DNA of 64,000 nt, from positions 17,026-81,025 of IMG/VR virus record IMGVR_UViG_3300018411_000022; one strand, given 5' to 3'. A model generated the notes under the pieces. That model saw nothing but the letters and a program-made list of their open reading frames with translations, was not told where the DNA came from and did not search any database. A program made the position numbers and the translations under genes. Position 1 is the first letter of the stretch. Every line of letters starts with the position of its first letter. This DNA is from a virus. This document shows positions 3,407 to 32,548 of the stretch, piece after piece.

Positions 3407-4247
3407 GAGTTACCGCCGAGAGGATTTCGCGCACCTGTTCCATTACTCGAATGATCAGGGGCAACTTAAGGAAGGTGTCTTCAACCACTTCTTCACTGAC
3501 ACGAAGTAGGTCGGCATCGGCCACATCAGAAGCCAAGATAAAGGCCATGAGTTGCAAAGCCAGTTCGGAGACGTTGCGATCCAACATCGGATCGGCGACA
3601 CGTTTTTCTTCGTAGTACGTCCGAAACGCTTCGGCCATGCTGGCAACCGGTAGATTGATCTTACCCCCAGCATCTACGTAGGCCAACAGCCACGGGTCTT
3701 TCAACTGACTGGTACAACTTTTAATACGTACCACTTTTCCAGTGCGTTGAACGGTGGGGGTATCAAACCCATCGTCTACTTTATGAACGGTGGTCAGCAA
3801 ACGCTTCAGGAGCGCCGGGTTGACGTTATCGAGATGAAGCAGTAGATCTTCCACAGTAAACTCGGAAGTCAGCTCCACGAGCGCTGCGAGCCGCTCCTCG
3901 GGCGATTCTTCGGACAGACAGATGGCTTCGATGGTCTCAACGTCATCAAAGTCGTCCAAGGTGTTGATGCTGCGGATAATAGCGGTGGCTTGTTTAAGAC
4001 CAAAGGTCTCATTTAAGAACACACCAAATTGGTTGAGGGTCGATTCCAACAAGTTTTTAATGTAGGCGTCGATCTCACTGACCACTTGGTCGCGACCAAT
4101 TTCGCCCTCTTGACTGATCAGACCTTCCAGTTGAACAATGTGCATACTGATCCCGGAGTCCAGAATAACCTGGACGGCATCCACATACACTGCAGTCAAT
4201 TCAGGTGTGATCACCGTACCTAGGAATTCTTCAATTTCTTCTACCAC
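3393..4247 (-). CDS. Hypothetical acidic helical protein upstream of beta-prime fragment
   Basis: The 284-residue protein starts with GTG behind a good CCGGAGG site. It is acidic and predicted mostly helical throughout, with repeated Leu/Val/Glu patterns, and has no signal peptide or membrane segment. No catalytic motif is visible. It is the first gene of the leftward operon and overlaps the polymerase fragment, so a role with that enzyme or in the virion is reasonable but unproven. Confidence 0.75.
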   Translation of the reverse strand: MVEEIEEFLGTVITPELTAVYVDAVQVILDSGISMHIVQLEGLISQEGEIGRDQVVSEIDAYIKNLLESTLNQFGVFLNETFGLKQATAIIRSINTLDDFDDVETIEAICLSEESPEERLAALVELTSEFTVEDLLLHLDNVNPALLKRLLTTVHKVDDGFDTPTVQRTGKVVRIKSCTSQLKDPWLLAYVDAGGKINLPVASMAEAFRTYYEEKRVADPMLDRNVSELALQLMAFILASDVADADLLRVSEEVVEDTFLKLPLIIRVMEQVREILSAVTHEQA

Positions 4248-4351
4248 AATAGACCTCCGGTTAAATAATACGACCTTCCCAAATTATACGAGACCATGCT
4301 CGAAAATTGTTCCCGAGCCCACGAATCAATTTACAAAAGGCGGAATACGTT

Positions 4352-4801
4352 ATGTCCCGTAAGCACAACCCTTCCTACGTCAAGCGTGGGCCGAACAGTC
4401 TTAAAGAGCTGATTCAGGAGCGCAAAGACTTCGAAAACATCTGGAATGATCTGAGCCATTTGCAAGCTCAGTGCTTCCAGCTGAACCAGTCGCCCACACA
4501 TGTGGTTGCTCTTCTGCGCAATCAGGAACTGGTGGCACGCGTTGCGGATAAAGCTTCGCTGATGCAACTGGCTAATACGCTGAATCGCGACGTTCAGGAT
4601 TTCAGCACACGACTGAATCAACTGAACGCTGCAGTCGATCAACACCGTGGTGGTGTAGTCGACTTGCCTAAGCTGGCCCTCCTGATGGATGTGGCACAGG
4701 CCTACGATCAGTGGATCACGTCATATCAATTGGTCGTGGTGCCGACTGCTATACAGATCACCGACCTCTTCAACCAACTCAATCAGAACCCGCAGGTGTA
4801 A
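4352..4801 (+). CDS. Hypothetical helical protein
   Basis: I place the start at the ATG encoding MSRKHNPSYV, which has AAAGGCGG upstream; an in-frame upstream extension lacks a ribosome site. The 149 residues are rich in Leu, Gln and Asn and probably form helical bundles (for example residues 20-110). It is the first gene of a rightward operon and sits two bases from the next gene. The pairing with that large gene suggests a tail or virion role, but I recognise no family. Confidence 0.7.
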   Translation: MSRKHNPSYVKRGPNSLKELIQERKDFENIWNDLSHLQAQCFQLNQSPTHVVALLRNQELVARVADKASLMQLANTLNRDVQDFSTRLNQLNAAVDQHRGGVVDLPKLALLMDVAQAYDQWITSYQLVVVPTAIQITDLFNQLNQNPQV

Positions 4802-4803
4802 CA

Positions 4804-6321
4804 ATGTCTGAGAACGAACTGCCAACACCCGAGAACGCATCCGAAGAAGGTGCCGAGAACACCTTGAACTCGAAGTCAACCAGCGACTACGCCCCCAAAG
4901 CGGTTAACCTCAATGTTCGTCTTCAGTACCCCATCGACAAACCGTATTCCGGTGCCGATGCCAAAGCGATCTTCGCAGACCCCAACCTACACCTGACGTT
5001 CATAAACGGTACGCTGGGCGATCTGAAAGAAACGGGTGACAACCACCCGAACATCGAGGTCGAAGGCGATGCCGGTACTCGCCGTTGGGTCGAATCGCTC
5101 GAACGTGGTTCTGCCAACCTGCTGCGCAACGAACCCTTCCAAGCAGCGCTGGACCAAGAAGGCGGTGACTGGCAACAGACCGTTGAATCGGCTGGTCAGC
5201 CCATGGGCATCTCCCGTCCGCGCTTTGCAGAGTCCGGCACTGTCCTGACTGGCGAGCGTGCTGTCATGCGCATGACGGCTGCGCTGGGTTTGGGTACCAT
5301 CCACCAAGTACCGCTGTGGCATACTGGTATCTGGGTCAGTTTCAAAGCGCCGTCTGAAGCGTCGATCCTCGAACTGGAGCGTCGTGTCGGTTCGGCAAAA
5401 GTGACGCTGGGTCGTATGACCAACGGTCTGGTGTTTTCGAACACCGCGGTTCACCTGATCAACGATCTGCTGGATTTTGCACTCCAGCACGTCTACGACA
5501 CCAACGCCAAAGAAATGTCGCCCAAGTACTTGGAAAGCATTGTGTTGGTGACCGATATCCCGTTGATCCTTTGGGGTCTGGCATCGGCCATCTACCCGAA
5601 CGGTTACCCGTATTCGCGTGGCTGTATCAACACCGAGAAGGTCTGTAACCATGTGTTCGAAGCCCTGCTGAATCTCAGCAAGCTGATGTGGACCAACCGT
5701 GCGGCGCTATCGGAATGGCAAACCAAGCGCATGACTCAGCGCAAGGCGCGGATGTCCGACGAAGACCTCAAGCGCTACGCCGAAGAGCACAAGTACAACA
5801 AAGAACGTCGGGTGTCCATCACCGACCAAATCGCCATCACTCTGGCGGTCCCAACCATTGAACAGTACTACAATTCGGGCAACGCCTGGATTGCCAACAT
5901 CATCAAGGTGATGGAAGGTGCGTTCGGTGAAAACATCCGTGGCGATGAGCGCGATGCCTACATCACCAACCAGGGGCGTTTGACCAACCTGCGTCAGTAC
6001 GGCCACTGGGTGAAGGAAGTGCATATCGAAGAGGCAGAGATCGGCACTGACCGTGACACGATCGAAAACCTCATGGGTGTGTTGACCGCCGATGAAGAGA
6101 CCCGCACCACCACCTTGGCAGCAGTGAGCGAGTACATCAACTCGGTGACTATTTCGGTGATTGGTCTGCCCAAACATGAGTGTCCGGTGTGTAAGGCCAA
6201 CCAGGTTAAGGAAGAGGAAGCCCAGTTCAGTCCGTACGTCGTACCGATTGATGTGGCGCAAGTTTTTTTTACCCTACTCAACCAACGCATCTACAAGGTA
6301 CTCATAAAGTCCTCCCTTTAA
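4804..6321 (+). CDS. Putative tail/baseplate assembly protein with C-terminal zinc knuckle
   Basis: The start is the ATG for MSENELPTP, two bases after the previous stop. The 505-residue product has an acidic, disordered N-terminus (about 1-50), a long alpha/beta middle (PLWHTGIWVSF, SYPYS-type turns), and near the C-terminus a CPVCK pair followed by VPIDVAQVFFTLLNQRI. A Cys pair followed by an FF-L segment recalls phage baseplate hub proteins of the T4_baseplate type; this is a weak resemblance. Eight T residues (6263-6270) lie near the 3' end, and a -1 shift there would fuse the product to the downstream frame. Confidence 0.65.
   Translation: MSENELPTPENASEEGAENTLNSKSTSDYAPKAVNLNVRLQYPIDKPYSGADAKAIFADPNLHLTFINGTLGDLKETGDNHPNIEVEGDAGTRRWVESLERGSANLLRNEPFQAALDQEGGDWQQTVESAGQPMGISRPRFAESGTVLTGERAVMRMTAALGLGTIHQVPLWHTGIWVSFKAPSEASILELERRVGSAKVTLGRMTNGLVFSNTAVHLINDLLDFALQHVYDTNAKEMSPKYLESIVLVTDIPLILWGLASAIYPNGYPYSRGCINTEKVCNHVFEALLNLSKLMWTNRAALSEWQTKRMTQRKARMSDEDLKRYAEEHKYNKERRVSITDQIAITLAVPTIEQYYNSGNAWIANIIKVMEGAFGENIRGDERDAYITNQGRLTNLRQYGHWVKEVHIEEAEIGTDRDTIENLMGVLTADEETRTTTLAAVSEYINSVTISVIGLPKHECPVCKANQVKEEEAQFSPYVVPIDVAQVFFTLLNQRIYKVLIKSSL
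6263..6270 (+). promoter_or_regulatory. Possible -1 frameshift site (T8 run)
   Basis: The upstream gene reads GTT TTT TTT ACC across this run. Slipping back one base gives TTT TAC CCT and continues without a stop into the downstream frame ending at 6791. The downstream frame has no credible ribosome site of its own. Confidence 0.4.
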
Positions 6322-6350
6322 CCGTTAACCCCGAAGACCAAGACAGCCAC

Positions 6351-6791
6351 GTGTTGTTACCGGGCTTCGGGGCACGGTTTTATAACAAGCCGACCTTGCT
6401 GGATAAAATCCTCGAGCAAGGAAAGCAGTTGGACAATATAGCGGCGCAGGTGGTGATGCGCGATGCCTACGAAACCCAATACGGGATTTGTGATCACGGC
6501 AGCCCATCTGCTAACCCCTTGGCGTTGGTTGAGTATCAGGCAAAAGAAGATGTGTCAGAATACGGGGCGCTTTACCGAACCTTTTATCAGTACCATCTGT
6601 ACGAGGTTCATAAAGAGTGGGGGGTGTCTATTGTGGACTTCCTCAACATGCCCCGCGAGTACTGTGCTTTAATGTTACGAATCTCTTCTGAGAAAGCGGC
6701 TCGCATGACGGCCGAAACTCAAAAGCAAATTCGAGCAGCCCAACAAGCACAGGCCGCCGCTGGTGTGGGTTTAGGAGGCGCGAAGCGATGA
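6351..6791 (+). CDS. Hypothetical protein, possibly the frameshift extension of the previous gene
   Basis: The first possible start is a GTG at 6351 with no Shine-Dalgarno sequence. The frame is open back to 6270 and reads NPEDQDSHVLLPGFG straight into the listed start, so the protein may be made only by a -1 frameshift from the preceding gene. From 6351 it has 146 residues: a compact part with YQYHLYEVHKEWGVSI and a C-terminal Ala/Gln-rich helix (QAQAAAGVGLGG). The layout recalls overlapping tail-assembly chaperones. The family is unknown. Confidence 0.55.
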   Translation: MLLPGFGARFYNKPTLLDKILEQGKQLDNIAAQVVMRDAYETQYGICDHGSPSANPLALVEYQAKEDVSEYGALYRTFYQYHLYEVHKEWGVSIVDFLNMPREYCALMLRISSEKAARMTAETQKQIRAAQQAQAAAGVGLGGAKR

Positions 6792-7246
6792 TCGTGTATG
6801 AAGGCGAAGGGTCCTTGTTTGATACCCGGTTGCAAACTATCACAGCCCCGGTTAACACGGTAGGGGTGATGGGGAATGGGTTGGCATTGGCCATGAAACA
6901 ACGGGTGCGGGGACTCTTTGACTTCTACAAAGATCTGTGTGACAAGGGTGAATTGAAGGTGGGGCAACCCCAACTGTATAAGATCCCAAAGTCACGTCAT
7001 CAGGTCCTATTGTTTCCCACCAAAGCACACTGGAAAAATCCGTCTAAACCAGAGTACGTCATCGAGGGGTTGGATTACCTTGTGGCGAACTATAAAGAGA
7101 TGGGGATCACAGAACTGGGGCTTCCGCCTTTGGGTTGTGGTTATGGGGGGCTTGATTACATTAAGTTCCTCCGCCCCCTACTCCATGAGAAATTGGCGGA
7201 CATTGACCTTCCCGTCCACATCTATCTGTACAACCGCATCCTTTAA
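6788..7246 (+). CDS. DarG-type macrodomain protein (ADP-ribose hydrolase)
   Basis: The 152 residues are a single macrodomain. NTVGVMGNGLAL (23-34) is the ADP-ribose-binding loop, FPTKAHW (77-83) carries the lysine used by DarG and TARG1 to remove ADP-ribose, and LPPLGCGYGGLDY (112-124) is the second phosphate loop. The match is to the DarG macro half, which reverses DNA ADP-ribosylation by DarT; the DarT-binding C-terminal part of DarG is absent. The ATG overlaps the preceding stop and follows GGAGG. A role in undoing host DarT-type defence is inferred. The last gene before a terminator. Confidence 0.85.
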   Translation: MIVYEGEGSLFDTRLQTITAPVNTVGVMGNGLALAMKQRVRGLFDFYKDLCDKGELKVGQPQLYKIPKSRHQVLLFPTKAHWKNPSKPEYVIEGLDYLVANYKEMGITELGLPPLGCGYGGLDYIKFLRPLLHEKLADIDLPVHIYLYNRIL

Positions 7247-7249
7247 GAC

Positions 7250-7283
7250 TCAGGTGGGGTAACTCACCTGATGTTTTTTTTTT
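7250..7283 (+). terminator. Rho-independent terminator
   Basis: A 7-bp stem (7250-7256 with 7265-7271) is followed by a run of ten T at 7274-7283. It separates the macrodomain operon from the early-promoter unit that begins at about 7300. Confidence 0.8.
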
Positions 7284-7296
7284 ATGCCCCTTCCAG

Positions 7297-7322
7297 TAAA
7301 AAGTATTTCAAACCTATATTAC
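7297..7322 (+). promoter_or_regulatory. phiKZ-type early promoter (TATATTAC)
   Basis: TATATTAC at 7315-7322 is preceded by an A-rich stretch and TTTCAAACC. The same arrangement occurs at about 9.3, 25.5 and 54.2 kb. TATATTAC matches the early promoter core described for phiKZ. The gene start is 50 bases downstream. Confidence 0.7.
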
Positions 7323-7371
7323 CCATAGGCAAGTGACATACTTGTTTAAACGCAACGAGGATTAAGCATCC

Positions 7372-7839
7372 ATGTACGTGTTAGTACGTTGTAAAGTAGA
7401 CTTTCTACAACCCACACCAGAACCCGTTTTGCTGAACGCCCCACTCCCATTCCCTTATGCGATGGCCCGTGCTCAGTTGGGTAACATTGAGTTTATGTGC
7501 GAAGTCCCCGAAGGCTTCAATGCACCCGACTATTTTGTTCACCCAATCGCCACGTCTGGCATCACACCTGAGATGTATCAGGCAATGATGACTCGTTACA
7601 TGGGTTGGGGTTTAAAAGCCCCTCAACAGTGGTCAGAGAGCCCGTTTACCAATCAGGACATCGTTTTCTTCGTAGCCAGCGAAGACTGTCGGCCCGTTGT
7701 GGTAGAGGCCAGCACTCCCCAATACGAGAAGCTCTTCTTCCCGCATTTCGAAGGGGTCTCGTTAGTCAAAGCTAAGTCCACCTCCATGGACGCTGTCGTG
7801 TACTATTGGTCAGATTCATTCTGCCACCAAAAACCCTAA
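7372..7839 (+). CDS. Hypothetical early protein
   Basis: First gene after the early promoter, with AACGAGGAT before its ATG. The 155 residues mix alpha and beta and contain many aromatics and prolines (PLPFPYAMARAQ, YYWSDSFCHQ). There is no signal peptide, membrane segment or recognisable motif. Position behind an early promoter suggests a host-takeover or counter-defence role; this is inferred from place only. Confidence 0.7.
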   Translation: MYVLVRCKVDFLQPTPEPVLLNAPLPFPYAMARAQLGNIEFMCEVPEGFNAPDYFVHPIATSGITPEMYQAMMTRYMGWGLKAPQQWSESPFTNQDIVFFVASEDCRPVVVEASTPQYEKLFFPHFEGVSLVKAKSTSMDAVVYYWSDSFCHQKP

Positions 7840-7857
7840 ACGGAAGGAACACACCTC

Positions 7858-8601
7858 ATGATCAATCTCGCACTCCAAACCCTGTTCTCCCAAGCACTGG
7901 TTTACTGCCGCGATCCCCAAGATCCGAGTAGTCTTATACGCGATCTCACACCCCTGAAGTTCACTCACCTGTTGATTGAAACCAACGGGACCGAATTGCT
8001 GTATGACGAAAATACCCATACCGTCTACACCGACCTTCAACGCGTCGACTTCGATGCGCACTTCCCAGAACTCCCATTCAGCCTCAGTGTGACTGAGGCA
8101 TCTCGGCGCTCTATCGGTTCTCTCCACAACTGGATGATCAACCTTGAGCACTATGCGGTGCGTCTGAATTACCGCGGTCCTCGTATCGTCGTGAAGGTTC
8201 AACAATTTATCGATTACTTGTTGAAAGAAAAAAGTGCTTCCACTACACCCAACCCACATGTGGTAAAACCTGAACAACTGGGTTCACCTGACCATAGCCC
8301 CATGGCTAAGAACATTAAGTTGTTGATCAGCTGTGACCATGAAAGCGATCGCCGGGTGTTGGTGGTGTACGACAACTACGAAGTCCGCGAGGTTCTGTAT
8401 AACCCCTTTAATGGTGGCTATGAGATCGACTTCGAAAATGAGGCCCTGGTCTACGCAGGACCTGATGCGGAACATCGTTACCAACAACTGACCAAGACCA
8501 TCGCACGCCGCCCCCATCGGATCTATGGTCGCGATCAGTTCGCCCCACAGGTACAACAAAACCCCGCCCCAGAAAATGGCGATACCGAAACACAAGCCTA
8601 A
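7858..8601 (+). CDS. Hypothetical early protein
   Basis: The 247-residue product follows the previous gene by 18 bases with GGAAGGAAC as ribosome site. Two globular parts (about 1-125 and 145-225) are joined by a Pro/Ser/Thr-rich linker, and the tail is disordered (PAPENGDTETQA). The parts each include a long hydrophobic strand (THLLIE, LLISCDHE), but I recognise no family. Second gene of the same early transcript; ends at a hairpin. Confidence 0.7.
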   Translation: MINLALQTLFSQALVYCRDPQDPSSLIRDLTPLKFTHLLIETNGTELLYDENTHTVYTDLQRVDFDAHFPELPFSLSVTEASRRSIGSLHNWMINLEHYAVRLNYRGPRIVVKVQQFIDYLLKEKSASTTPNPHVVKPEQLGSPDHSPMAKNIKLLISCDHESDRRVLVVYDNYEVREVLYNPFNGGYEIDFENEALVYAGPDAEHRYQQLTKTIARRPHRIYGRDQFAPQVQQNPAPENGDTETQA

Positions 8602-9279: not shown

Positions 9280-9301
9280 GTGTAATATGAGACTGCCGAA
9301 A

Positions 9302-9326
9302 TAAAAAAATCTCAGATCTATATTAC
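9302..9326 (+). promoter_or_regulatory. phiKZ-type early promoter (TATATTAC)
   Basis: TAAAAAAATCTCAGATC precedes TATATTAC at 9319-9326. The 25.5-kb site shares the poly-A block, ATCTCA, and the core, so these two are near duplicates. It drives the cluster of small genes from 9384. Confidence 0.75.
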
Positions 9327-24153: not shown

Positions 24154-25443
24154 ATGAGTCTGAAGCAACTGTTCATCTCCATGGAAGATGAAGCCACCAA
24201 CGAAACCGAGCTGGTCGTTTCTGCCGACGATACCCTCGAAATCGAAATCGCTGACGCTGCCGAAGCTGAAGGCGAAGTCGAAGAGCAAGGCGACAACGTC
24301 GAAGAGCTGGGCGAAATCTCTGAAGGTCTGGAAAGCATCCTGATCTCCATGGAAAGCGCCATGCAAGACGGCGGCCTGAACCCGCAAGCAGCCCTGTTCA
24401 TGCAGCACGCCGTTCAAGCTCACGTTGGTCGTCTGGGCCTCGAAGCCTCCGACGTTACCCCGTCGATGGAATCCTTCGGCGGTGCCTCCGGTCAAGCTGC
24501 TGCCACCACCATCTCCATGGAAGGCATCGGCGAAACCCTGAAGAAAATCTGGCTGGCCATCAAGAACGCCGTCTCCAAGGCAATCCAGGCTATCAAGAAC
24601 TTCTTCGCCAAGATCTTCGGTGGCGTCTCCAAGCTGAAGACTCGCTCCGACGCTCTGAAGAAGGCCGTCAGCGATCTGACCGACGAGAAAGGCGACAAGA
24701 TCAAGGTCCCGAACGCCAACACCCTGCGCTACAAGGGCAAGGTCGACGTTGGTTCCGTGATCTCCGGTCTGGAAGCCACTCACAAAATCGCCGGCGAGCA
24801 CATGGAGAACCTCTCCAAGGCTGCTGCTGAGTTCTACGCCGTCCGCGTACCGCGTCTACTTGAGCGTGCCGAGACCAACGATTTCGCCAAGGCCGCTCTG
24901 GAAAACGAATTGCTGGACGCCAGCAAGCAGTTCACCGACGTTGCTCAGAAGACCGTCAGCGTAACTTCTCCGATGTCCGGCGACGCCGTAATGCGCATGG
25001 AAGAATCTTCCAGCGTTGAAAAAGGCACCGACGGCAACCTGAAGGCTCCGAAGCTGGTCAAAGGCTACGCGTTCAAGGCCCTGGACGATTCGGGTACCGA
25101 AGTAGCTGCTCCTTCGAAGGCTGAAATGCAGAAGATTCTTGGCGCTTGCGACAAGATGATCGCTCAGCTGGAAGAGAAGAAGAAGTCCCTCGAGAAGCTG
25201 ACCGAAGCTCGCGAAAAAGCGATGAAGGAAAGCGAGAAGAAGGTCGAAGGCTGGACCAAGAAGATCAAGGAAAGTGCCAAGCAAGCTGGTGCCTCCATGA
25301 TCATGCGTAAGGCCAACCTCGACCTCGGTCGTGGCGTCAACGCGATCTACTCCCACGAGTTCAACGTCGTTCGCGCGGCTCTGGCTCTGGTTGATCGCGG
25401 CGTTGCAGCTCACAAGGCTGGCCCGGCTAAAGAGAAGAAGTAA
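24154..25443 (+). CDS. Internal head protein with prohead-protease sites
   Basis: The 429-residue product has four S-M-E sites in its N-terminal acidic region: ISMEDE (about 9-14), ISMESA (about 67-72), SMESFG (about 108-113) and ISMEGI (about 123-128). A Glu/Ala-rich propeptide is therefore probably cut off in the prohead, leaving a basic helical protein (about 127-429, rich in Lys and Ala). This matches inner-body proteins of phiKZ-type phages. Codon use is the most biased in the window together with the capsid gene, which implies very high expression. ATG follows ACGGAG. Confidence 0.8.
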   Translation: MSLKQLFISMEDEATNETELVVSADDTLEIEIADAAEAEGEVEEQGDNVEELGEISEGLESILISMESAMQDGGLNPQAALFMQHAVQAHVGRLGLEASDVTPSMESFGGASGQAAATTISMEGIGETLKKIWLAIKNAVSKAIQAIKNFFAKIFGGVSKLKTRSDALKKAVSDLTDEKGDKIKVPNANTLRYKGKVDVGSVISGLEATHKIAGEHMENLSKAAAEFYAVRVPRLLERAETNDFAKAALENELLDASKQFTDVAQKTVSVTSPMSGDAVMRMEESSSVEKGTDGNLKAPKLVKGYAFKALDDSGTEVAAPSKAEMQKILGACDKMIAQLEEKKKSLEKLTEAREKAMKESEKKVEGWTKKIKESAKQAGASMIMRKANLDLGRGVNAIYSHEFNVVRAALALVDRGVAAHKAGPAKEKK

Positions 25444-25467
25444 TTCTCTCTGAAACCCGGTGTCTGT

Positions 25468-25495
25468 AAAAGCCCATCCCGAAGGATGGGCTTTT
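25468..25495 (+). terminator. Rho-independent terminator
   Basis: A 12-bp stem AAAAGCCCATCC/GGATGGGCTTTT with a CGAA loop (25468-25479 with 25484-25495), followed by ATGCCGCC. Strong end to the internal head gene. Confidence 0.8.
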
Positions 25496-25520
25496 ATGCC
25501 GCCTATACCCAAAGACGAAA

Positions 25521-25545
25521 TAAAAAAATCTCAAGTCTATATTAC
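25521..25545 (+). promoter_or_regulatory. phiKZ-type early promoter (TATATTAC)
   Basis: TAAAAAAATCTCAAGTC precedes TATATTAC at 25538-25545. It is nearly the same as the site at 9302-9326, down to the poly-A and ATCTCA blocks. It drives the gene at 25604 and perhaps the sponge gene after it. Confidence 0.75.
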
Positions 25546-25603: not shown

Positions 25604-26506
25604 ATGAAAGTTAACAACATCAATGTGATCAAAGCCGTCGTTCAACTGATGGACAAAGGCGGTCGCCTCGCTGACGAACTCTACGCCGGCATGGCCACTG
25701 ACAAGGAAGAGCGTATCTTCCTGATAAGCGATTACAACTACCCGGTCAACATCACAGTAGACGATAAAGGCGAAATCACTTTCACCAGTGAACGCTTGAA
25801 GGGGGCTGTGAAATTCGAGCCGGGTCACGACCTTCCGGTCAAGGACGCATTCGCCATCTACTGCGAGAAGATGGGTCTGATCAATCCACTGTTCTTCCAT
25901 TGCAGCATGATGGAAAAGGCGATCGTCATGGCCAGCTTCAACAACATGATCCGTCAGTACGACGCCAAAGGCGGTAACGTCTCTGGTGAAGAACTGATCA
26001 GCAGTGCTCTGGCTGCCACTATGTCCAACTTCGATCAGGCCATCAAGCAGGTTGATCCTGACATGGTGTCTGATGAAGACAGTTTGGTTCAGGCTATGAT
26101 CGCCGCCGGGATGACTCCGGTTCGTGAGCAACAGGTCCCAATCCCAACCGAAACCGTTACAGCTCAGCCAACAGATTTGGAGAACACCGTGAAAAAGATC
26201 GAAGCACTTCCCGTTACACAAGCCCAACCAGTTCAAGCAGAAAACCACTACGACCTCTTGGTAGGTGCTGCTGATACTGAACGCGCTGAAAAGCTGATCG
26301 ACATTCTGAAAAACGGCGGCCAACTCAACAACCAAGAGCAAGAGCTTCTGGTCCAGTTGGAGAGCATCGTTGGTAAAACCAAAGCGCGCAAAGAGCGCTT
26401 GACTGAAACCCTGAATGACAAATCCACTATTGTGGCAAACAGTGTGGGTCGGTTGTTGAAGAGCCACCTAGTTCCTTACGGGTTGCACAAGCGTCACCTG
26501 GCCTAA
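25604..26506 (+). CDS. Hypothetical early protein
   Basis: The ATG follows TCAGGAGATTCACC. The 300 residues comprise a compact N-terminal domain (about 1-160), a proline-rich linker (TPVREQQVPIPTETVTAQ), and a C-terminal helical domain with several Glu/Gln. No known motif. It is an early-promoter gene directly upstream of the Tad1-like gene. Confidence 0.7.
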   Translation: MKVNNINVIKAVVQLMDKGGRLADELYAGMATDKEERIFLISDYNYPVNITVDDKGEITFTSERLKGAVKFEPGHDLPVKDAFAIYCEKMGLINPLFFHCSMMEKAIVMASFNNMIRQYDAKGGNVSGEELISSALAATMSNFDQAIKQVDPDMVSDEDSLVQAMIAAGMTPVREQQVPIPTETVTAQPTDLENTVKKIEALPVTQAQPVQAENHYDLLVGAADTERAEKLIDILKNGGQLNNQEQELLVQLESIVGKTKARKERLTETLNDKSTIVANSVGRLLKSHLVPYGLHKRHLA

Positions 26507-26518
26507 CGGCATAAAGTG

Positions 26519-26551
26519 AAAGAGGGGCCTTCGGGCCTCTTTTTTTTTTAC
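26519..26551 (+). terminator. Rho-independent terminator
   Basis: A G/C hairpin around a TTCG loop (AGAGG ... CCTCT) is followed by ten T. CGGCATAAA precedes it. Confidence 0.8.
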
Positions 26552-26600
26552 ATTGTTTAGTGATACTATAGACAACCCACCACTAATGGAAGTAGTCGAT

Positions 26601-27017
26601 ATGAGTAATAAAACCCTTCACCGCCATCTGGTTATCTTTGGTGACCATAAAGAGTCCCTAGTAGTTGAAGCCGTAGATCAACCAGGACCAGGTAATGCTA
26701 ACCATCACTACACCATCACTGGTTTTGATACTAAATCCAATCCCAGTAATAGTAACGCTGAAGGCTATGTTTCCAGTTTCAGTAGGTTGCCGGTGATATT
26801 CCAACACGGTACCGTACCCGAATGTGGTCAGAACGGCATAACCATAGAAGCACTGTTGGCAATCTGCGAACACCGTTTGTCTGGTTTCCAGTCAGGACCA
26901 TACTCCAACAACTATAATGCAGAAGCACTGCTACACGTGGGCAAAGCTTTGGATGCCCTTAAACAAAGGACCCTGGACCGACTGGTTCGACAAGTCGAAG
27001 GTCTCGAGAAAGCATAA
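26601..27017 (+). CDS. Tad1/Acb2-like cyclic-nucleotide sponge
   Basis: I start at the ATG for MSNKTLHRHL, with GGAAG upstream; 138 residues. The N-terminal half is beta-rich with QPGPGNANHHYTI (27-39). The C-terminal half (79-138) is a helical hairpin: GITIEALLAICEHRLSGFQ then SNNYNAEALLHVGKALDALK, ending RTLDRLVRQVEG. This combination is what I know of Tad1, which sequesters signal nucleotides of Thoeris defence, and its hairpin resembles the one shared with the anti-CBASS sponge Acb2. The assignment is from memory of the family pattern. It follows an early-promoter gene and precedes a terminator. Confidence 0.65.
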   Translation: MSNKTLHRHLVIFGDHKESLVVEAVDQPGPGNANHHYTITGFDTKSNPSNSNAEGYVSSFSRLPVIFQHGTVPECGQNGITIEALLAICEHRLSGFQSGPYSNNYNAEALLHVGKALDALKQRTLDRLVRQVEGLEKA

Positions 27018-27020
27018 GTA

Positions 27021-27043
27021 AGGAGGGGGGGTTAGCCCCTCCT
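27021..27043 (+). terminator. Hairpin terminator after sponge gene
   Basis: Stem AGGAGGGG/CCCCTCCT (27021-27028 with 27036-27043), followed by CCTATGCCGCG. The T-run is weak. Confidence 0.6.
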
Positions 27044-27111
27044 CCTATGCCGCGTATGGTATGGCTTAGACTAAACGTGTGGTTGACACTACACAACCCA
27101 AGGAGTTAACC

Positions 27112-28632
27112 ATGCCCAACATTGTTTCTGAGATCCCCGAGACGTATAACTCGGTGACTCGACCGGTGTGTGTTCAAATGATCAAAGACCTGGTGGCCTA
27201 TATGGGGTTGCCGAAAGACACCGGGATCGATTATTACGGCGTTACTGAAGCACAATACCAATCGGCCAGCCCTATGGACCCTACTGCTGAAAACAAGTAC
27301 GGTTTCACTGGACGGGTTTATGTAGAAGTGGAGGAGGAGTATATTGAAGAACGTACCCTCACCACCGCAGTCCGTAAACCGAACGAGCAGTTCATTTTCT
27401 CAGACCCGGCGCTAGGTATTCACATCAAACCTGTTTACGTGCGGACAGAGGTAGCGATCAGCTTCCGCTACCGGGCACCAGATCGCACCAGCGCCCTGCG
27501 GTGGCGAGATCGCATGCGTCTGAAGGTCTCTGAAGGCCAACAGGAACTCTTACACGAGTTCGACTACCACTACCCCCTCCCTAAGGCAGAACTACTCATC
27601 TTGCGCGAACTGTGGCGAATGAGAGAAGCCGAGCACGGTTACGGAGAAGATCTGAAATCATACCTACGAGCACACTTTAGTCCTCGGGTAGTTTCGGTTA
27701 CTAACCAAGCGGGGCGCGGTGCACTGTTGTCCATGGCTGAACGTCAGGTAGGGGTCATCGGCTGGTTTGACTTTATGGCCCAGCCCGACAAAGGCGGTGC
27801 TGCGAGTGAAGGGGCTCCTTGGGAGATCGGGTTTGAATACCGATTCCAGTACGACAAGCCCGTGGCCTGTGCGATGCGGTATCCGATTGTTGTCCACAAC
27901 CAAGTGGTGGATCAGAAGTACCGTCAAGAGAAATTGACCTACGAACTGGCCAACGTCGCCCGCCGACCAAACGATGAACGTCGTCACTTGGACAAGTTCA
28001 CACGTTTGTACACCGATGTACTCTATCCCTTCAAAGGGGTACGCATTCCGGAGTACGATGACTGGGTTGCTACTACCCAGTTTAAGAACATGTATCCAGT
28101 GCTGACGTTGTTGATGGGTGTTAATCCTGAAGACCCTCGTGAATTGTTCAGTCTTAAGGAGTTGGGTACACACGAGTTCACACCTCAGATCTTAACGTTC
28201 TTAGCAGACGAATGTCGTTACTTGAATCTGCCTGCTCAGACTGTTTTCAACCTCCATTTGTTCCATGGTGACACCCGAATGGAGGAGACGGTTTTGACAG
28301 TGGATGCCGATCTGAATGTGCGAACTACAGTCGACCTCGATCCTCGTAAAATGTACCACGTGGTGATGACCATCAGTGATCTTAAGATCCTGAGTCCTCA
28401 GACGTTGGAACGTTTGCGTCAACATGGTCAAGTGGCGCTGGATTTGGTTAAGGTGCTTTACCCACACAAACCCATCGACCCTAAAGACACTAAACTGCTC
28501 GGCGATAAATTACTGCCCCGTAAGACGCTTCAACAACTCCTTGATCGCATCAGTCGACAAGCAGCGATGCGGACTGTGGGTAGTTACAGCATCATCGTCC
28601 GACCGAAGGAAGATCTCCATGCCGATTCTTAA
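27112..28632 (+). CDS. Putative virion structural protein
   Basis: The ATG (MPNIVSEIPE) follows CAAGGAGTTAACC. The 506-residue product has mixed folds with beta-rich blocks (VYVEVEEEYIEERTLTTAV), many acidic and aromatic residues and no catalytic motif. It begins a tightly packed set of five genes ending with thymidylate kinase. A virion or baseplate role is inferred from the set. Confidence 0.6.
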   Translation: MPNIVSEIPETYNSVTRPVCVQMIKDLVAYMGLPKDTGIDYYGVTEAQYQSASPMDPTAENKYGFTGRVYVEVEEEYIEERTLTTAVRKPNEQFIFSDPALGIHIKPVYVRTEVAISFRYRAPDRTSALRWRDRMRLKVSEGQQELLHEFDYHYPLPKAELLILRELWRMREAEHGYGEDLKSYLRAHFSPRVVSVTNQAGRGALLSMAERQVGVIGWFDFMAQPDKGGAASEGAPWEIGFEYRFQYDKPVACAMRYPIVVHNQVVDQKYRQEKLTYELANVARRPNDERRHLDKFTRLYTDVLYPFKGVRIPEYDDWVATTQFKNMYPVLTLLMGVNPEDPRELFSLKELGTHEFTPQILTFLADECRYLNLPAQTVFNLHLFHGDTRMEETVLTVDADLNVRTTVDLDPRKMYHVVMTISDLKILSPQTLERLRQHGQVALDLVKVLYPHKPIDPKDTKLLGDKLLPRKTLQQLLDRISRQAAMRTVGSYSIIVRPKEDLHADS

Positions 28633-30028
28633 CCCCAAAGCGCCAGCACCCGCCCCAGAGAAAAACATGGGTCATGCCGTTGCGCCTGAAATTCAAAGCA
28701 ATGTGGTCGATACCCGGTACCAACCTCACAAGTCACTGTTGGCTTACGTGGAAGGGGCTAGCTGGATTGTCAACTACTATAGTCAAATCTTAGGTAAAGA
28801 CGATGAGGTCTCTGATCTCCAAGTCAACCAAGAGGCGGCCTATCAACAATACCGTTTGGTAAAGCTTCTGGAACTCAAGGTTACCGGCGAGCTTTCCCAA
28901 AGCCAAGATGCCAATACCCGCACGTGGGAAGTATCTGGTGAAGCCACTGTCTATGCAGGAGTGATTCCTAACGTAGGTGACGTATTCATTGCAGACATCG
29001 GCGACGGTAAAGAAGGCCTGTTTACCGTTACGGCTTCTGAGAAGAAGTCTCGTCTTCATGATGCGGTGTACACCATCTCGTACAAAATGCGTTCTGAGAT
29101 GGATGACCTACATCGACGTGACCTCGACAGTAAGGTTGTGGTGGAACAGGTGTTTGTTAAAAACACCCTCCAAACCAATCGCAATGCTACCTTGGTCACC
29201 ACCGAGTTCGAACAACTGGCCAAAATCGAGGCGGGTTACAAACACTTGGTGATGCATTACTTCCGAGACTTCTTCAACATCGAACACCAAACGTTATTGG
29301 TGCCCGATCAACCCGAGAAGCTGTACGACCCCTTCTTGGTCAGTGGGGTGTTGTCGACCGTTGAGCAGAGTGAACACCCGCTGATCTACCGGATCAAGGT
29401 GTTGAACGTTGAACGCGATCCGGCTTTCAAGGAAGTTAACTTGTGGCAGTGCTTGGCGCAGAACAACGTGGATCTTTTGACCATGGCGTTTTATCAAGCC
29501 GGGGTGGCACCACGCGAACGCTTCAACGAACACCCCCAGTTCAATGGGTTCTATTACAGCGGTATTGAATCGATTGTCTACCCCACCGACAAAGCCAATC
29601 TTAAGGTGGTGGATTCGACACGCAGTGATCGGACTGATTACCAAGGATTGAACTACGGGTGTGAATACATAGACCCACTGATACCCGAACGTATTGTGGG
29701 AGGTTCTCGTCGCAGTAATAACCTGAACAAGATCCTTCAAGCCAGCACTGACCTCGCAGGCTTTGAAAAGGGATCAGGTAGTGAGCCGGTACTGATCCAT
29801 CCGGTGACCATTGACGACTTCTACGTCCTCAGTCGGGCATTCTACTACCAAGAACAAGGTCAATCCGTGTTGGAGTTGGCGACGCGCAATACCTTGGAAG
29901 GCAAGCCTGTGGATAAAGCCGATCTGTTACGATTGGTAGAGTCTGCCAAGACTTGGCCCAACCTTGAGCGCTTCTACTACATCCCACTGGTGTTGATCCT
30001 CATCAAGTACGCCATGGCAGATTACTAA
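28619..30028 (+). CDS. Putative virion structural protein
   Basis: The start is the ATG for MPILNPKAPA, inside the end of the previous gene (14-base overlap) with GAAGGAAG upstream. The 469 residues have a Pro-rich N-terminus, then beta-rich stretches (WEVSGEATVYAGVI) and a helical C-terminal segment ending LVLILIKYAMADY. No known motif. Structural role by context. Confidence 0.6.
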   Translation: MPILNPKAPAPAPEKNMGHAVAPEIQSNVVDTRYQPHKSLLAYVEGASWIVNYYSQILGKDDEVSDLQVNQEAAYQQYRLVKLLELKVTGELSQSQDANTRTWEVSGEATVYAGVIPNVGDVFIADIGDGKEGLFTVTASEKKSRLHDAVYTISYKMRSEMDDLHRRDLDSKVVVEQVFVKNTLQTNRNATLVTTEFEQLAKIEAGYKHLVMHYFRDFFNIEHQTLLVPDQPEKLYDPFLVSGVLSTVEQSEHPLIYRIKVLNVERDPAFKEVNLWQCLAQNNVDLLTMAFYQAGVAPRERFNEHPQFNGFYYSGIESIVYPTDKANLKVVDSTRSDRTDYQGLNYGCEYIDPLIPERIVGGSRRSNNLNKILQASTDLAGFEKGSGSEPVLIHPVTIDDFYVLSRAFYYQEQGQSVLELATRNTLEGKPVDKADLLRLVESAKTWPNLERFYYIPLVLILIKYAMADY

Positions 30029-30616: not shown

Positions 30617-31943
30617 TTCCTTAATCAACGCTGTGCGGGAGGTGACGGACAGCCGTACGCCACTTCCCCAATATCGCTACAGTTGTAGTGTACGCCTACC
30701 GGACGGTCGTGAATTGGTACCGTTACGGGTGGTGTCTACTGACATTGCCCGTGACTACCTCAAGACGTTCGCCGATGAGTCGTATATCACGATCGTCTTT
30801 GGGGTGGGGACATACAGCAAATACATCTACCCCAATAAAGAGCGGCTGTCGGTGCAACTCACTCGTGAAGTCATTGGGGATCACGCCACAGCCGATGATG
30901 AACCGATCATCACCCGAGAATACAAAGCCGTTCTGTGTGAGACCAAGGATATTGCTGCCGCTTCGGGTTCAGGCATTCTGGATAACGTTGAGGTCGCTGA
31001 CTCAGCTAACGTTGCCAATGTACGCCTGCAGTTGATCGATCGATCGGTTGAGTGGTTGCGGTCTGTTTCAGTGGGTGGGAGTTTCCGCAAACGTACAGCA
31101 GCAGATCTTCTGTTGACCTTGTTGACGGTTAAAACCCAGGAGATTCCGCGTGAGGTGGTGGGTACCCAAGGACGTGTTGACATGGTACCGCCAGACAACC
31201 TTGAACCTCGTGACCACATTGTAGTGCCTCACGGTAAGCCGTTGGTGGAACTGGCTGATTTTCTTCAAGAAGAATGTGGGGGGATTTACAACACCGGGTT
31301 GGGTATTTACTTACTGGCAGGCGACTGGTATGTATGGCCAGCACTGAACACCAAACGTTTTGACCAAAGCCCTCGTGGACTCACGGTCATTAACGTACCA
31401 GAAGAGAAGATGCCGAGTATCGAACGGACGTGGCTGACTAAAGGGAATCAATTGATTGTCTTGTCCACTGGTCGCACGGACATTACCGATACTTCAGATA
31501 AAGCAAAGCTGGACAAGGGGATTGGTATTCGGTTCAACGACGCCAAAGGTCTCTTAGACAGTTTTGTACACACTGTCGGTAACGTAGCCAAAGCCTCTCG
31601 AGGTAAGAACGTTACGGAGGTGTTGATTGATCAAGCAGTGGAGGGATTGGCACACGTTACGCGTGGGGCCAAAGCAACCAGTAACTTGTTTGCTGAGTTG
31701 TCTAAAACAGTCTTTCGCAAGGGCAACAATGTAACTGCCACGTGGGAGAACTCTGATCACACCCTGCTTTACCCCGGCATGCCTGTACGCTTCATGTACG
31801 AGCATGAAAACCAAGTCCGCATTCGTTATGGCGTTCTGGTGGGGGATCAACACTTTATCTCGATGGAAGGTAAAGGTGGTACGAGCCAACGGTTTAAATC
31901 CAACACGGCGCTGTATTTATTCCTGGATAAGGAAGAGGAGTAA
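30603..31943 (+). CDS. Putative baseplate hub / virion structural protein
   Basis: I choose the GTG at 30603 because GGAGGTAAGGACA lies directly before it; it overlaps the previous gene by 14 bases. The 446-residue product alternates strands and has features of gp27-like hub proteins, such as LADFLQEECGGIYNTGLGIY with a WYVWP turn, and beta-barrel-like C-terminal half. The resemblance is loose, so hub is one option and generic virion protein the other. It directly precedes thymidylate kinase. Confidence 0.5.
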   Translation: MLENSSLINAVREVTDSRTPLPQYRYSCSVRLPDGRELVPLRVVSTDIARDYLKTFADESYITIVFGVGTYSKYIYPNKERLSVQLTREVIGDHATADDEPIITREYKAVLCETKDIAAASGSGILDNVEVADSANVANVRLQLIDRSVEWLRSVSVGGSFRKRTAADLLLTLLTVKTQEIPREVVGTQGRVDMVPPDNLEPRDHIVVPHGKPLVELADFLQEECGGIYNTGLGIYLLAGDWYVWPALNTKRFDQSPRGLTVINVPEEKMPSIERTWLTKGNQLIVLSTGRTDITDTSDKAKLDKGIGIRFNDAKGLLDSFVHTVGNVAKASRGKNVTEVLIDQAVEGLAHVTRGAKATSNLFAELSKTVFRKGNNVTATWENSDHTLLYPGMPVRFMYEHENQVRIRYGVLVGDQHFISMEGKGGTSQRFKSNTALYLFLDKEEE

Positions 31944-31945
31944 CG

Positions 31946-32548
31946 ATGTTCATTGTGTTTGAAGGCGGGGAAGGATGTGGTAAGACCACACTGCGGCGCG
32001 CCGTAGGGGAGCGTCTGGAAGCAATGGGGTATAAAGTCACGTACACACGTGAGCCTGGTGGGACGCCGTTGGCCGAAGAAATTCGGGCACTGGTGTTAGC
32101 ACATCGTGAAGAACGCGTGGACGTCATGACGGAAGCACTACTGTTCTTTGCAGCCCGCCGTCAACACGTTGAACGAGTCATTAAACCTCGCTTGGGTGAA
32201 GGTCACATCGTTCTGTGCGACCGTTTCATCGATTCGACCTATGCACTCCAGTGTCGTGGTGGTGAGCTTTCTCGTCACACGTTCAACGCGTTGGTCAAGA
32301 CTACGCTCGATGACTTTCGTCCAGACCTGACCGTAGTGATCGACATTGATCCCGAAGTCTCCTTCAAGGGGGTGCGGGAACGTGGGGAACTGGACCGGAT
32401 GGAAGCCAAGGGGTTGGAATACCACCAAAGGGTGCGTGAAGGCTTCTTGGATCAGATCGAAGCAGATCCTAGCCGTTACTACCTGATGTCCGGTCATCGC
32501 GACTTGAACAAGATGGTTGATGAAGTCATTAACCGTTCTGGTTTGTGA
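31946..32548 (+). CDS. tmk: Thymidylate kinase
   Basis: The 200 residues match bacterial dTMP kinase in length and order: P-loop GGEGCGKT (7-14), REPGGT (35-40), DRF (92-94) and the lid-region arginines (about 144-160). It phosphorylates dTMP to dTDP on the way to dTTP, and works with the phage ThyA, DHFR and NrdAB. It ends the structural operon at a palindromic terminator. Confidence 0.95.
   Translation: MFIVFEGGEGCGKTTLRRAVGERLEAMGYKVTYTREPGGTPLAEEIRALVLAHREERVDVMTEALLFFAARRQHVERVIKPRLGEGHIVLCDRFIDSTYALQCRGGELSRHTFNALVKTTLDDFRPDLTVVIDIDPEVSFKGVRERGELDRMEAKGLEYHQRVREGFLDQIEADPSRYYLMSGHRDLNKMVDEVINRSGL

Follow-up and report, generated by a model that had tools for sequence, protein, structure and literature searches.

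A compact Tad1-family protein encoded within the inner-body gene cluster of a jumbo phage

Proteins of the Tad1 family sequester the molecules through which bacterial immune systems raise the alarm. In phiKZ, Tad1 blocks both CBASS and Thoeris through sequestration, as the available text of two reviews states (PMC13282480, PMC12043709), and the first of these, from 2026, states in that text that no other anti-defence protein has been described in jumbo phages. A Tad1 in a jumbo phage is thus already known from phiKZ gp184. A 138-codon open reading frame, here called tad1, sits inside an inner-body (head) gene cluster on a 64-kb stretch of viral DNA (the window, meaning the whole stretch analysed), which belongs to a virus record of 81 kb. 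The locus raises the questions of whether its product is a Tad1 sponge and, if so, whether this sponge is packaged in the virion or made in the infected cell. The features run in the order inner-body gene, hairpin, early-promoter motif, ORF300, hairpin with T tract, tad1 and hairpin:

24154 to 25443, + strand: gene for an inner-body (internal head) protein on the left flank (match to PHROG 2497, internal head protein, at 2.9e-28); its product begins MSLKQLFISMEDE
25468 to 25495, + strand: terminator-like hairpin 3' of the inner-body gene and 5' of the early-promoter motif (three-strain alignment)
25518 to 25545, + strand: vRNAP-type early-promoter motif; second copy at 9299-9326, core in three records
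25604 to 26506, + strand: ORF300, orphan, the first gene after the early-promoter motif (three-strain alignment)
26518 to 26545, + strand: intrinsic-terminator-like hairpin with T tract in the gap between ORF300 and tad1, kept in three strains
26588 to 26592, + strand: Shine-Dalgarno-like GGAAG of tad1, 8 nt 5' of the ATG (read from the sequence)
26601 to 27017, + strand: tad1, predicted cyclic-nucleotide sponge of the Tad1 family, 138 aa (phmmer, profile, AlphaFold2 with Foldseek and VIA)
27020 to 27044, no strand assigned: hairpin 3' of tad1, T tract on the - strand side only, identical in three strains
27112 to 28632, + strand: conserved inner-body-cluster gene (phrog_3289), right flank (PHROG match)

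Farther downstream, 28496-30025 also matches a head PHROG.

Identity and predicted fold of the tad1 product

The tad1 frame is exact, running from an ATG at 26601 to a TAA stop that ends at 27017, with two longer in-frame starts available (ATG at 26586 and TTG at 26553). The sequence-only reading of this DNA had proposed a Tad1-like sponge, to be checked by HMM search against the Acb2/Tad1 hairpin family and by structure prediction, and the three strings that it quoted are all present in the product: QPGPGNANHHY at residues 27-37, EALLAICEHRLSGFQ at 83-97 and RTLDRLVRQVEG at 123-134. A phmmer search of the PDB (177,635 sequences) returned seven distinct sequences at E <= 1, namely phiKZ gp184 (8y6v, 8.6e-13), CmTad1 (8kbb, 7.3e-9) and five sequences that are nearly alike in the aligned stretch (7uav, 8kbg, 8kbe and two of 8kbh; 3.6e-12 to 4.3e-12); the match to CbTad1 is at 3.6e-12, and entries 7uav and 8kbe bear titles that identify them as Clostridium botulinum Tad1 (CbTad1). 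With a 45-sequence profile, the values against the PDB are 8e-43 for phiKZ gp184, 2.1e-29 for CbTad1 and 5.8e-26 for CmTad1. Matches to Tad1 at these levels are far above what chance would give.

Annotation resources are less informative. PHROGs 2428, 23843 and 22140 match the product and all carry the label unknown function, so the Tad1 assignment helps annotation; no match was found in Pfam (E <= 1) or in PADLOC. The proposed HMM search came out negative, in that the Pfam family Acb2_Tad1_hairpin (PF24729) does not match the tad1 product. Of the 45 sequences in the tad1 alignment, 25 are recognised by this model, the tad1 product not among them, and phiKZ gp184, an accepted Tad1, is likewise unmatched by it. 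The family name also covers Acb2, a phage sponge with a helical hairpin like that of Tad1; according to the available text of one review, Acb2 lacks the N-terminal beta domain (PMC12043709).

The AlphaFold2 model, built from the 45-row alignment, has a pLDDT of 91.1 and a pTM of 0.80. Six strands (residues 4-6, 11-13, 16-18, 21-24, 36-40 and 63-67) are followed by two long helices (82-98 and 104-129), in agreement with the beta-rich N-terminal domain and helical C-terminal half that had been read from the sequence. Foldseek returned 20 matches at E <= 0.001, every one of them a Tad1 chain, with 7uaw (1.5e-9) on top; the gp184 entry 8y6v is not within the best 50 of 160 matches. VIA alignment superimposes the model on the ligand-bound CbTad1 structures 8kbf and 8smd (Z 12.4 for both) and on CmTad1 (Z 10.4-11.3), with the top unrelated entry at Z 7.0; structure prediction bore out the proposed fold.

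Residues F96, N106, R123 and R127 of the product fall on CbTad1 chain positions F83, N93, R110 and R114. These would be the equivalents of F82, N92, R109 and R113, which we take to be the gcADPR pocket residues of CbTad1; the offset of one between chain and pocket numbering agrees with the VIA alignment. Among other sequences, F96 is conserved in 90%, N106 in 98% and R123 in 100% (60 sequences), and R127 in 97% (59 sequences). Because homology, predicted fold and conserved residues concur, the tad1 product is a true Tad1-family protein, a claim that has held on tests stronger than the PF24729 HMM.

A close architecture is that of CbTad1 from a Clostridium botulinum prophage (PDB 7uav, 7uaw, 8smd, 8kbe, 8kbf), a compact Tad1 with 34-35% identity to the tad1 product in the VIA alignments. 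Both have a beta N-terminal domain, two C-terminal helices and the putative pocket residues; the tad1 product differs from CbTad1 in its jumbo-phage carrier and in N103 and Y105, which lie in the turn preceding the putative pocket residue Asn106. Of the 59 columns with 70% conservation or more among 60 other sequences, 15 hold a non-consensus residue in the product. Column 103 holds N in place of a conserved C (90%; N in 0 of the 60) and column 105 holds Y in place of a conserved E (87%; Y in 3% of the others), while Q at the G131 column and L at the T135 column each occur in 0% of the others. Because of these departures, the ligand range of the product may differ from that of the family.

The carrier phage and its relatives

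Two related IMG/VR contigs, of 131.5 and 221 kb, encode tad1 at 100 and 99% amino-acid identity, respectively, and the gene 3' of tad1 at 97 and 98%. The 221-kb contig also encodes a homologue of phiKZ gp54 (27% identity, residues 5-616, 1.3e-37), which we take to be the phage-nucleus shell protein. Given this relative, the assignment of the tad1-carrying replicon to a jumbo phage, which the sequence-only reading had made, is upheld by the sequence comparison. The phage-collection best match for the gene after tad1 is from Burkholderia phage FLC9 (35%), and a near-DNA search of 12 kb against that collection gave no match.

Each of the three related records holds a single Tad1 match, in an intact frame with 0-2 differences per 417 bases. 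Over the unit 26545-27075, the three contig pairs show 2, 0 and 2 differences in 531 bases, as compared with 80, 77 and 58 differences in 1,518 bases of the neighboring gene. Because 23, 8 and 13 of 296 sliding windows (the tad1 windows included) are equally alike, this likeness among strains may reflect mosaicism rather than selection. As a separate observation, window positions 24612-25512 and about 31812-32412 are 17-30% divergent in DNA from one sister contig and adjoin stretches at least 97% identical to the same contig; these apparent mosaic exchanges affect the internal head gene and a gene that looks, by eye, like one for a P-loop kinase.

Relatives of tad1 are found by tblastn in 107 of 50,697 phage records (E <= 0.01), each at less than 60% identity; 66 of these are named Pseudomonas phages. 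An IMG/VR search with a related protein gave 59 loci, whereas scanning GTDB genomes by pattern gave no relative. Larger forms occur in jumbo phages, as phiKZ gp184 and its relatives (201phi2-1 gp280, phiHQ and Viktualia) carry a Tad1 domain, as here, behind an N-terminal extension with an inner-body motif, whereas the window Tad1 is untagged. In phiKZ and 201phi2-1 the gene lies close behind gp182, in contrast to the position of tad1 within the inner-body cluster. In trees of 61 and 55 rows, a supported clade unites the gp184 types and excludes the tad1 product, which falls at differing places on a long end branch (1.13-1.44). A common clade of the tad1 product and phiKZ gp184 remains compatible with the AU test (p 0.284), and because of this and of the differing placements we make no claim of an acquisition independent of gp184. 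The tad1 product represents a second, compact Tad1 architecture in a jumbo phage. Three points are new: the protein is compact and untagged, an early-promoter-led ORF precedes its gene, and its slot in the inner-body cluster recurs, as described below.

Early-promoter motif and transcription of tad1

The 28-base pattern AAATAAAAAAATCTCANNTCTATATTAC was derived from the sites at 25518-25545 and 9299-9326 and then searched; it has these two matches in the window and none in 100 shuffles, a result that, given the origin of the pattern, shows only that the two sites resemble each other beyond chance. Its 21-base core (<= 3 mismatches) occurs in 3, 4 and 5 copies in the three related records, on a single strand within each, with 0 in the control. 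Seven places with TATATTAC were inspected (four in the 221-kb contig and three in the window, with one region counted in two records); each is followed by the ATG start of an ORF of 85 aa or more, 57-68 bases past the first base of TATATTAC. One place has two candidate ORFs, and an eighth, in the 221-kb contig, is too near the end to judge. The window motif agrees with the predicted phiKZ promoter, which is TATATTAC, with longer forms predicted in 201phi2-1 and OBP in the available text of PMC7058600; such motifs are early promoters wherever transcripts have been profiled, as stated in the accessible part of a review (PMC7598289).

On the + strand of the cluster stretches, TATATTAC is absent in FLC9, PCH45, LucasX, SURPRISE13, SA002 and Rebecca, and in the stretches of Eowyn, KpGz_1 and phiKZ it occurs outside the cluster only; the phiKZ stretch also holds looser forms. 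Some phages without TATATTAC may use other motifs. A weaker early-promoter-like site, CCTATATTAC, at 7313-7322 of the window, precedes a gene at 7372.

The sequence-only reading had placed tad1 in an early unit next to an early promoter. A motif is indeed present one gene upstream, and the 1,055 bases from it to tad1 hold ORF300 and the hairpin at 26518-26545; this terminator-like element intervenes and the neighbors are head genes, so the placement is supported in part. Terminator-like sites such as this hairpin number 10 in 10 kb, against 9.3 expected from shuffles, so it is not significant by itself. The window motif search found no copy directly before tad1, and a sigma-70 scan listed no promoter directly 5' of it. 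Early expression of tad1 is plausible from this arrangement and no firmer than that, because the hairpin intervenes and the motif is not repeated before the gene. Two other candidate elements were set aside: ACAACCCA, common to tad1 and the next gene, occurs at 10 window places, five per strand, and GTGATACTATAG, before tad1, is not recurrent (four matches, equalled in 24 of 100 shuffles).

ORF300 has no match in the phage collection or among PHROGs, and in viral_contigs it is found in the two sister contigs only (three copies altogether); its AlphaFold2 model is unusable (pLDDT 40.7). BLASTP against the same-place neighbors in PCH45, FLC9 and Eowyn gave weak stretches, the best at 0.004 over 44 residues. 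The N-terminal part of ORF300 is conserved, and its C-terminal third has diverged in one sister contig, where the gene spans 5530-6393 of the stretch compared. By eye, the start of ORF300 resembles those of two genes of the 221-kb contig, but BLASTP lent this no support. These two small genes lie at 613-891 and 271-528 of their respective stretches, near early-promoter motifs; they have similar starts (GVNDEMPKELY and GLNDTMAAELY) and are possibly a family of early proteins.

A shared slot and the mode of delivery

A Tad1-profile DNA search of the same stretch in nine other phages gave matches in three of them, Klebsiella phage Eowyn (4e-17), Serratia phage KpGz_1 (2.7e-17) and Xanthomonas phage LucasX (LUCX_115, 2.3e-16), within a slot between the upstream head-cluster gene and the phrog_3289 gene; the latter is present in 197 phage records. 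No match was found in the same stretch of FLC9, PCH45, phiKZ, SURPRISE13, SA002 or Rebecca, and the Tad1 genes of FLC9 and phiKZ are located elsewhere in the genome. The three matches refute the idea that tad1 is a unique insert in the inner-body cluster. In coordinates of the respective stretches, the genes are an Eowyn CDS at 7704-8141, annotated as structural protein, a KpGz_1 gene at 4704-5141, where the Eowyn protein is 87% identical, and LUCX_115 at 3423-3863. KpHz_2 also has an Eowyn-type gene (98%), which precedes its phrog_3289 gene by 0.9 kb. The Tad1-like gene is separated from the phrog_3289 gene by one gene in Eowyn and KpGz_1 and by five small ones in LucasX. The slot holds Tad1-family genes in at least two lineages besides the window phage.

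The products in the slot are not equivalent. The Eowyn-type protein, which matches gp184 and CmTad1 at 1e-4, does so in the hairpin part only; unlike the window Tad1, the Eowyn and KpGz_1 proteins match the profile over 57-119 only, have their own N-terminus with an [SG][LMV]E motif and contain nothing alignable past the R123 equivalent. The LucasX protein differs from the window Tad1 in lacking the Asn at the N106 place and the Arg at the R127 place. Because of the hairpin-only match in the former and the missing Asn and one Arg in the latter, the Eowyn-type and LucasX proteins may not function as sponges.

The motif [SG][LMV]E bears on delivery. A published head-protease or inner-body motif is S/A/G-X-E, or LSxE, in the available text of the study that also reports, by a single western blot (n=1), that phiKZ gp184 is injected into cells as an inner-body interactor (PMC10449902). 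Within the first 25 residues, [SG][LMV]E is carried by 8 of 113 phiKZ proteins tested. A first set of 73 yielded gp93, gp94, gp95, gp97 and gp184, five matches that are not independent because the motif was first read off gp93-97 and gp184; in a fresh test, 3 of 34 matched (gp153, gp162 and gp163), all among proteins chosen for the published injection test, and six further phiKZ proteins had none. Seven of the eight carriers are on the injected-protein list as given in the accessible part of that paper (PMC10449902), where gp162 was tested and is not listed; gp177 was validated there as injected, yet lacks the motif. As an observation in its own right, [SG][LMV]E comes close to picking out the inner-body or injected set among the 113 phiKZ proteins and overlaps the head-protease motif, and it could help predict injected proteins.

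In the window Tad1, the first 25 residues hold no [SG][LMV]E from any of the three starts. The motif is present in the Eowyn and KpGz_1 Tad1-family proteins and absent from that of LucasX, and it occurs in 1 of 54 IMG/VR Tad1 proteins as first cut and in 2 of 54 at full length, both gp184-type. Its absence is weak evidence, since some head-cluster proteins elsewhere also lack it in their first 25 residues (Eowyn 6054-7346 and SURPRISE13 3896-5206). Taken together with the position of tad1 behind an early-promoter-led ORF, the lack of the gp184 motif suggests, with moderate force, that the window Tad1 is made in the infected cell and not packaged.

We consider it very probable that the tad1 product is a Tad1 sponge that holds nucleotide alarm signals; that it is made in the cell rather than packaged is likely but less sure. 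We infer for it an oligomeric state, ligand binding and bound signals as follows: the 138-aa protein would assemble like Tad1, as a hexamer of three dimers, and would bind and hold the Thoeris signal gcADPR as well as the cyclic di- and/or trinucleotide signals of CBASS, such that the signals are sequestered and the host effectors stay off. Translation would take place in the infected cell, perhaps early, rather than ahead of packaging and injection, and transcription could come from read-through of the hairpin behind ORF300 or from an unrecognised promoter at 26546-26600. An unlikely but serious alternative is that the window Tad1 belongs to the inner body of the virion, as phiKZ gp184 does, being produced together with the neighboring head proteins, packaged, injected with the DNA and acting as a sponge from there. 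The same-slot genes, of which Eowyn's is called structural and has the motif, favor a link to the virion, as do the location of tad1 within the inner-body gene cluster, the injection result for gp184, its structural annotation and its solved chain in 8y6v, and the AU test, which is compatible with a joint clade. Against packaging stand the missing N-terminal extension and [SG][LMV]E of gp184, the early-promoter-led ORF and two hairpins that separate tad1 from the inner-body gene, and the LucasX same-slot protein, which also lacks the motif.

Two further alternatives concern function. That the product keeps the Tad1 fold with a shifted signal range is possible, though we lean against it: the alpha1-alpha2 turn beside the pocket is altered by C103N and E105Y at strongly conserved positions, but CbTad1 itself has S at column 103 and the four putative pocket residues are kept. 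An inactive Tad1 remnant is highly improbable, for while the altered conserved columns and the long end branch would fit decay, the frame is intact in all three related contigs and most conserved residues are retained.

At a level of confidence somewhat short of even, we propose that phiKZ-like jumbo phages have an anti-defence slot within the inner-body cluster, immediately before phrog_3289, occupied by Tad1-family genes in several lineages (the window phage, Eowyn/KpGz_1 and LucasX), and that they deliver the sponge by more than one route. It would be tagged and injected with the inner body in the phiKZ type, untagged and produced in the cell behind an early-promoter-led ORF in the window phage, and joined to a cyclophilin in FLC9. 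If so, evolution could tune when these phages sequester the signals. The recurring slot is a place to look for more anti-defence genes. The fused form is exemplified by FLC9 gp131, which is 45% identical to the tad1 product over the Tad1 domain and differs from it in being 338 aa long, with an N-terminal cyclophilin and the Tad1 domain C-terminal. A literature search found no paper on a phage cyclophilin-Tad1 fusion. Such fusions are seen in two records, FLC9 gp131 (PF00160, 2.5e-44; 7299-8315 of its own stretch) and a gene of an IMG/VR contig (PF00160, 2e-44; 4311-5411 of its own stretch).
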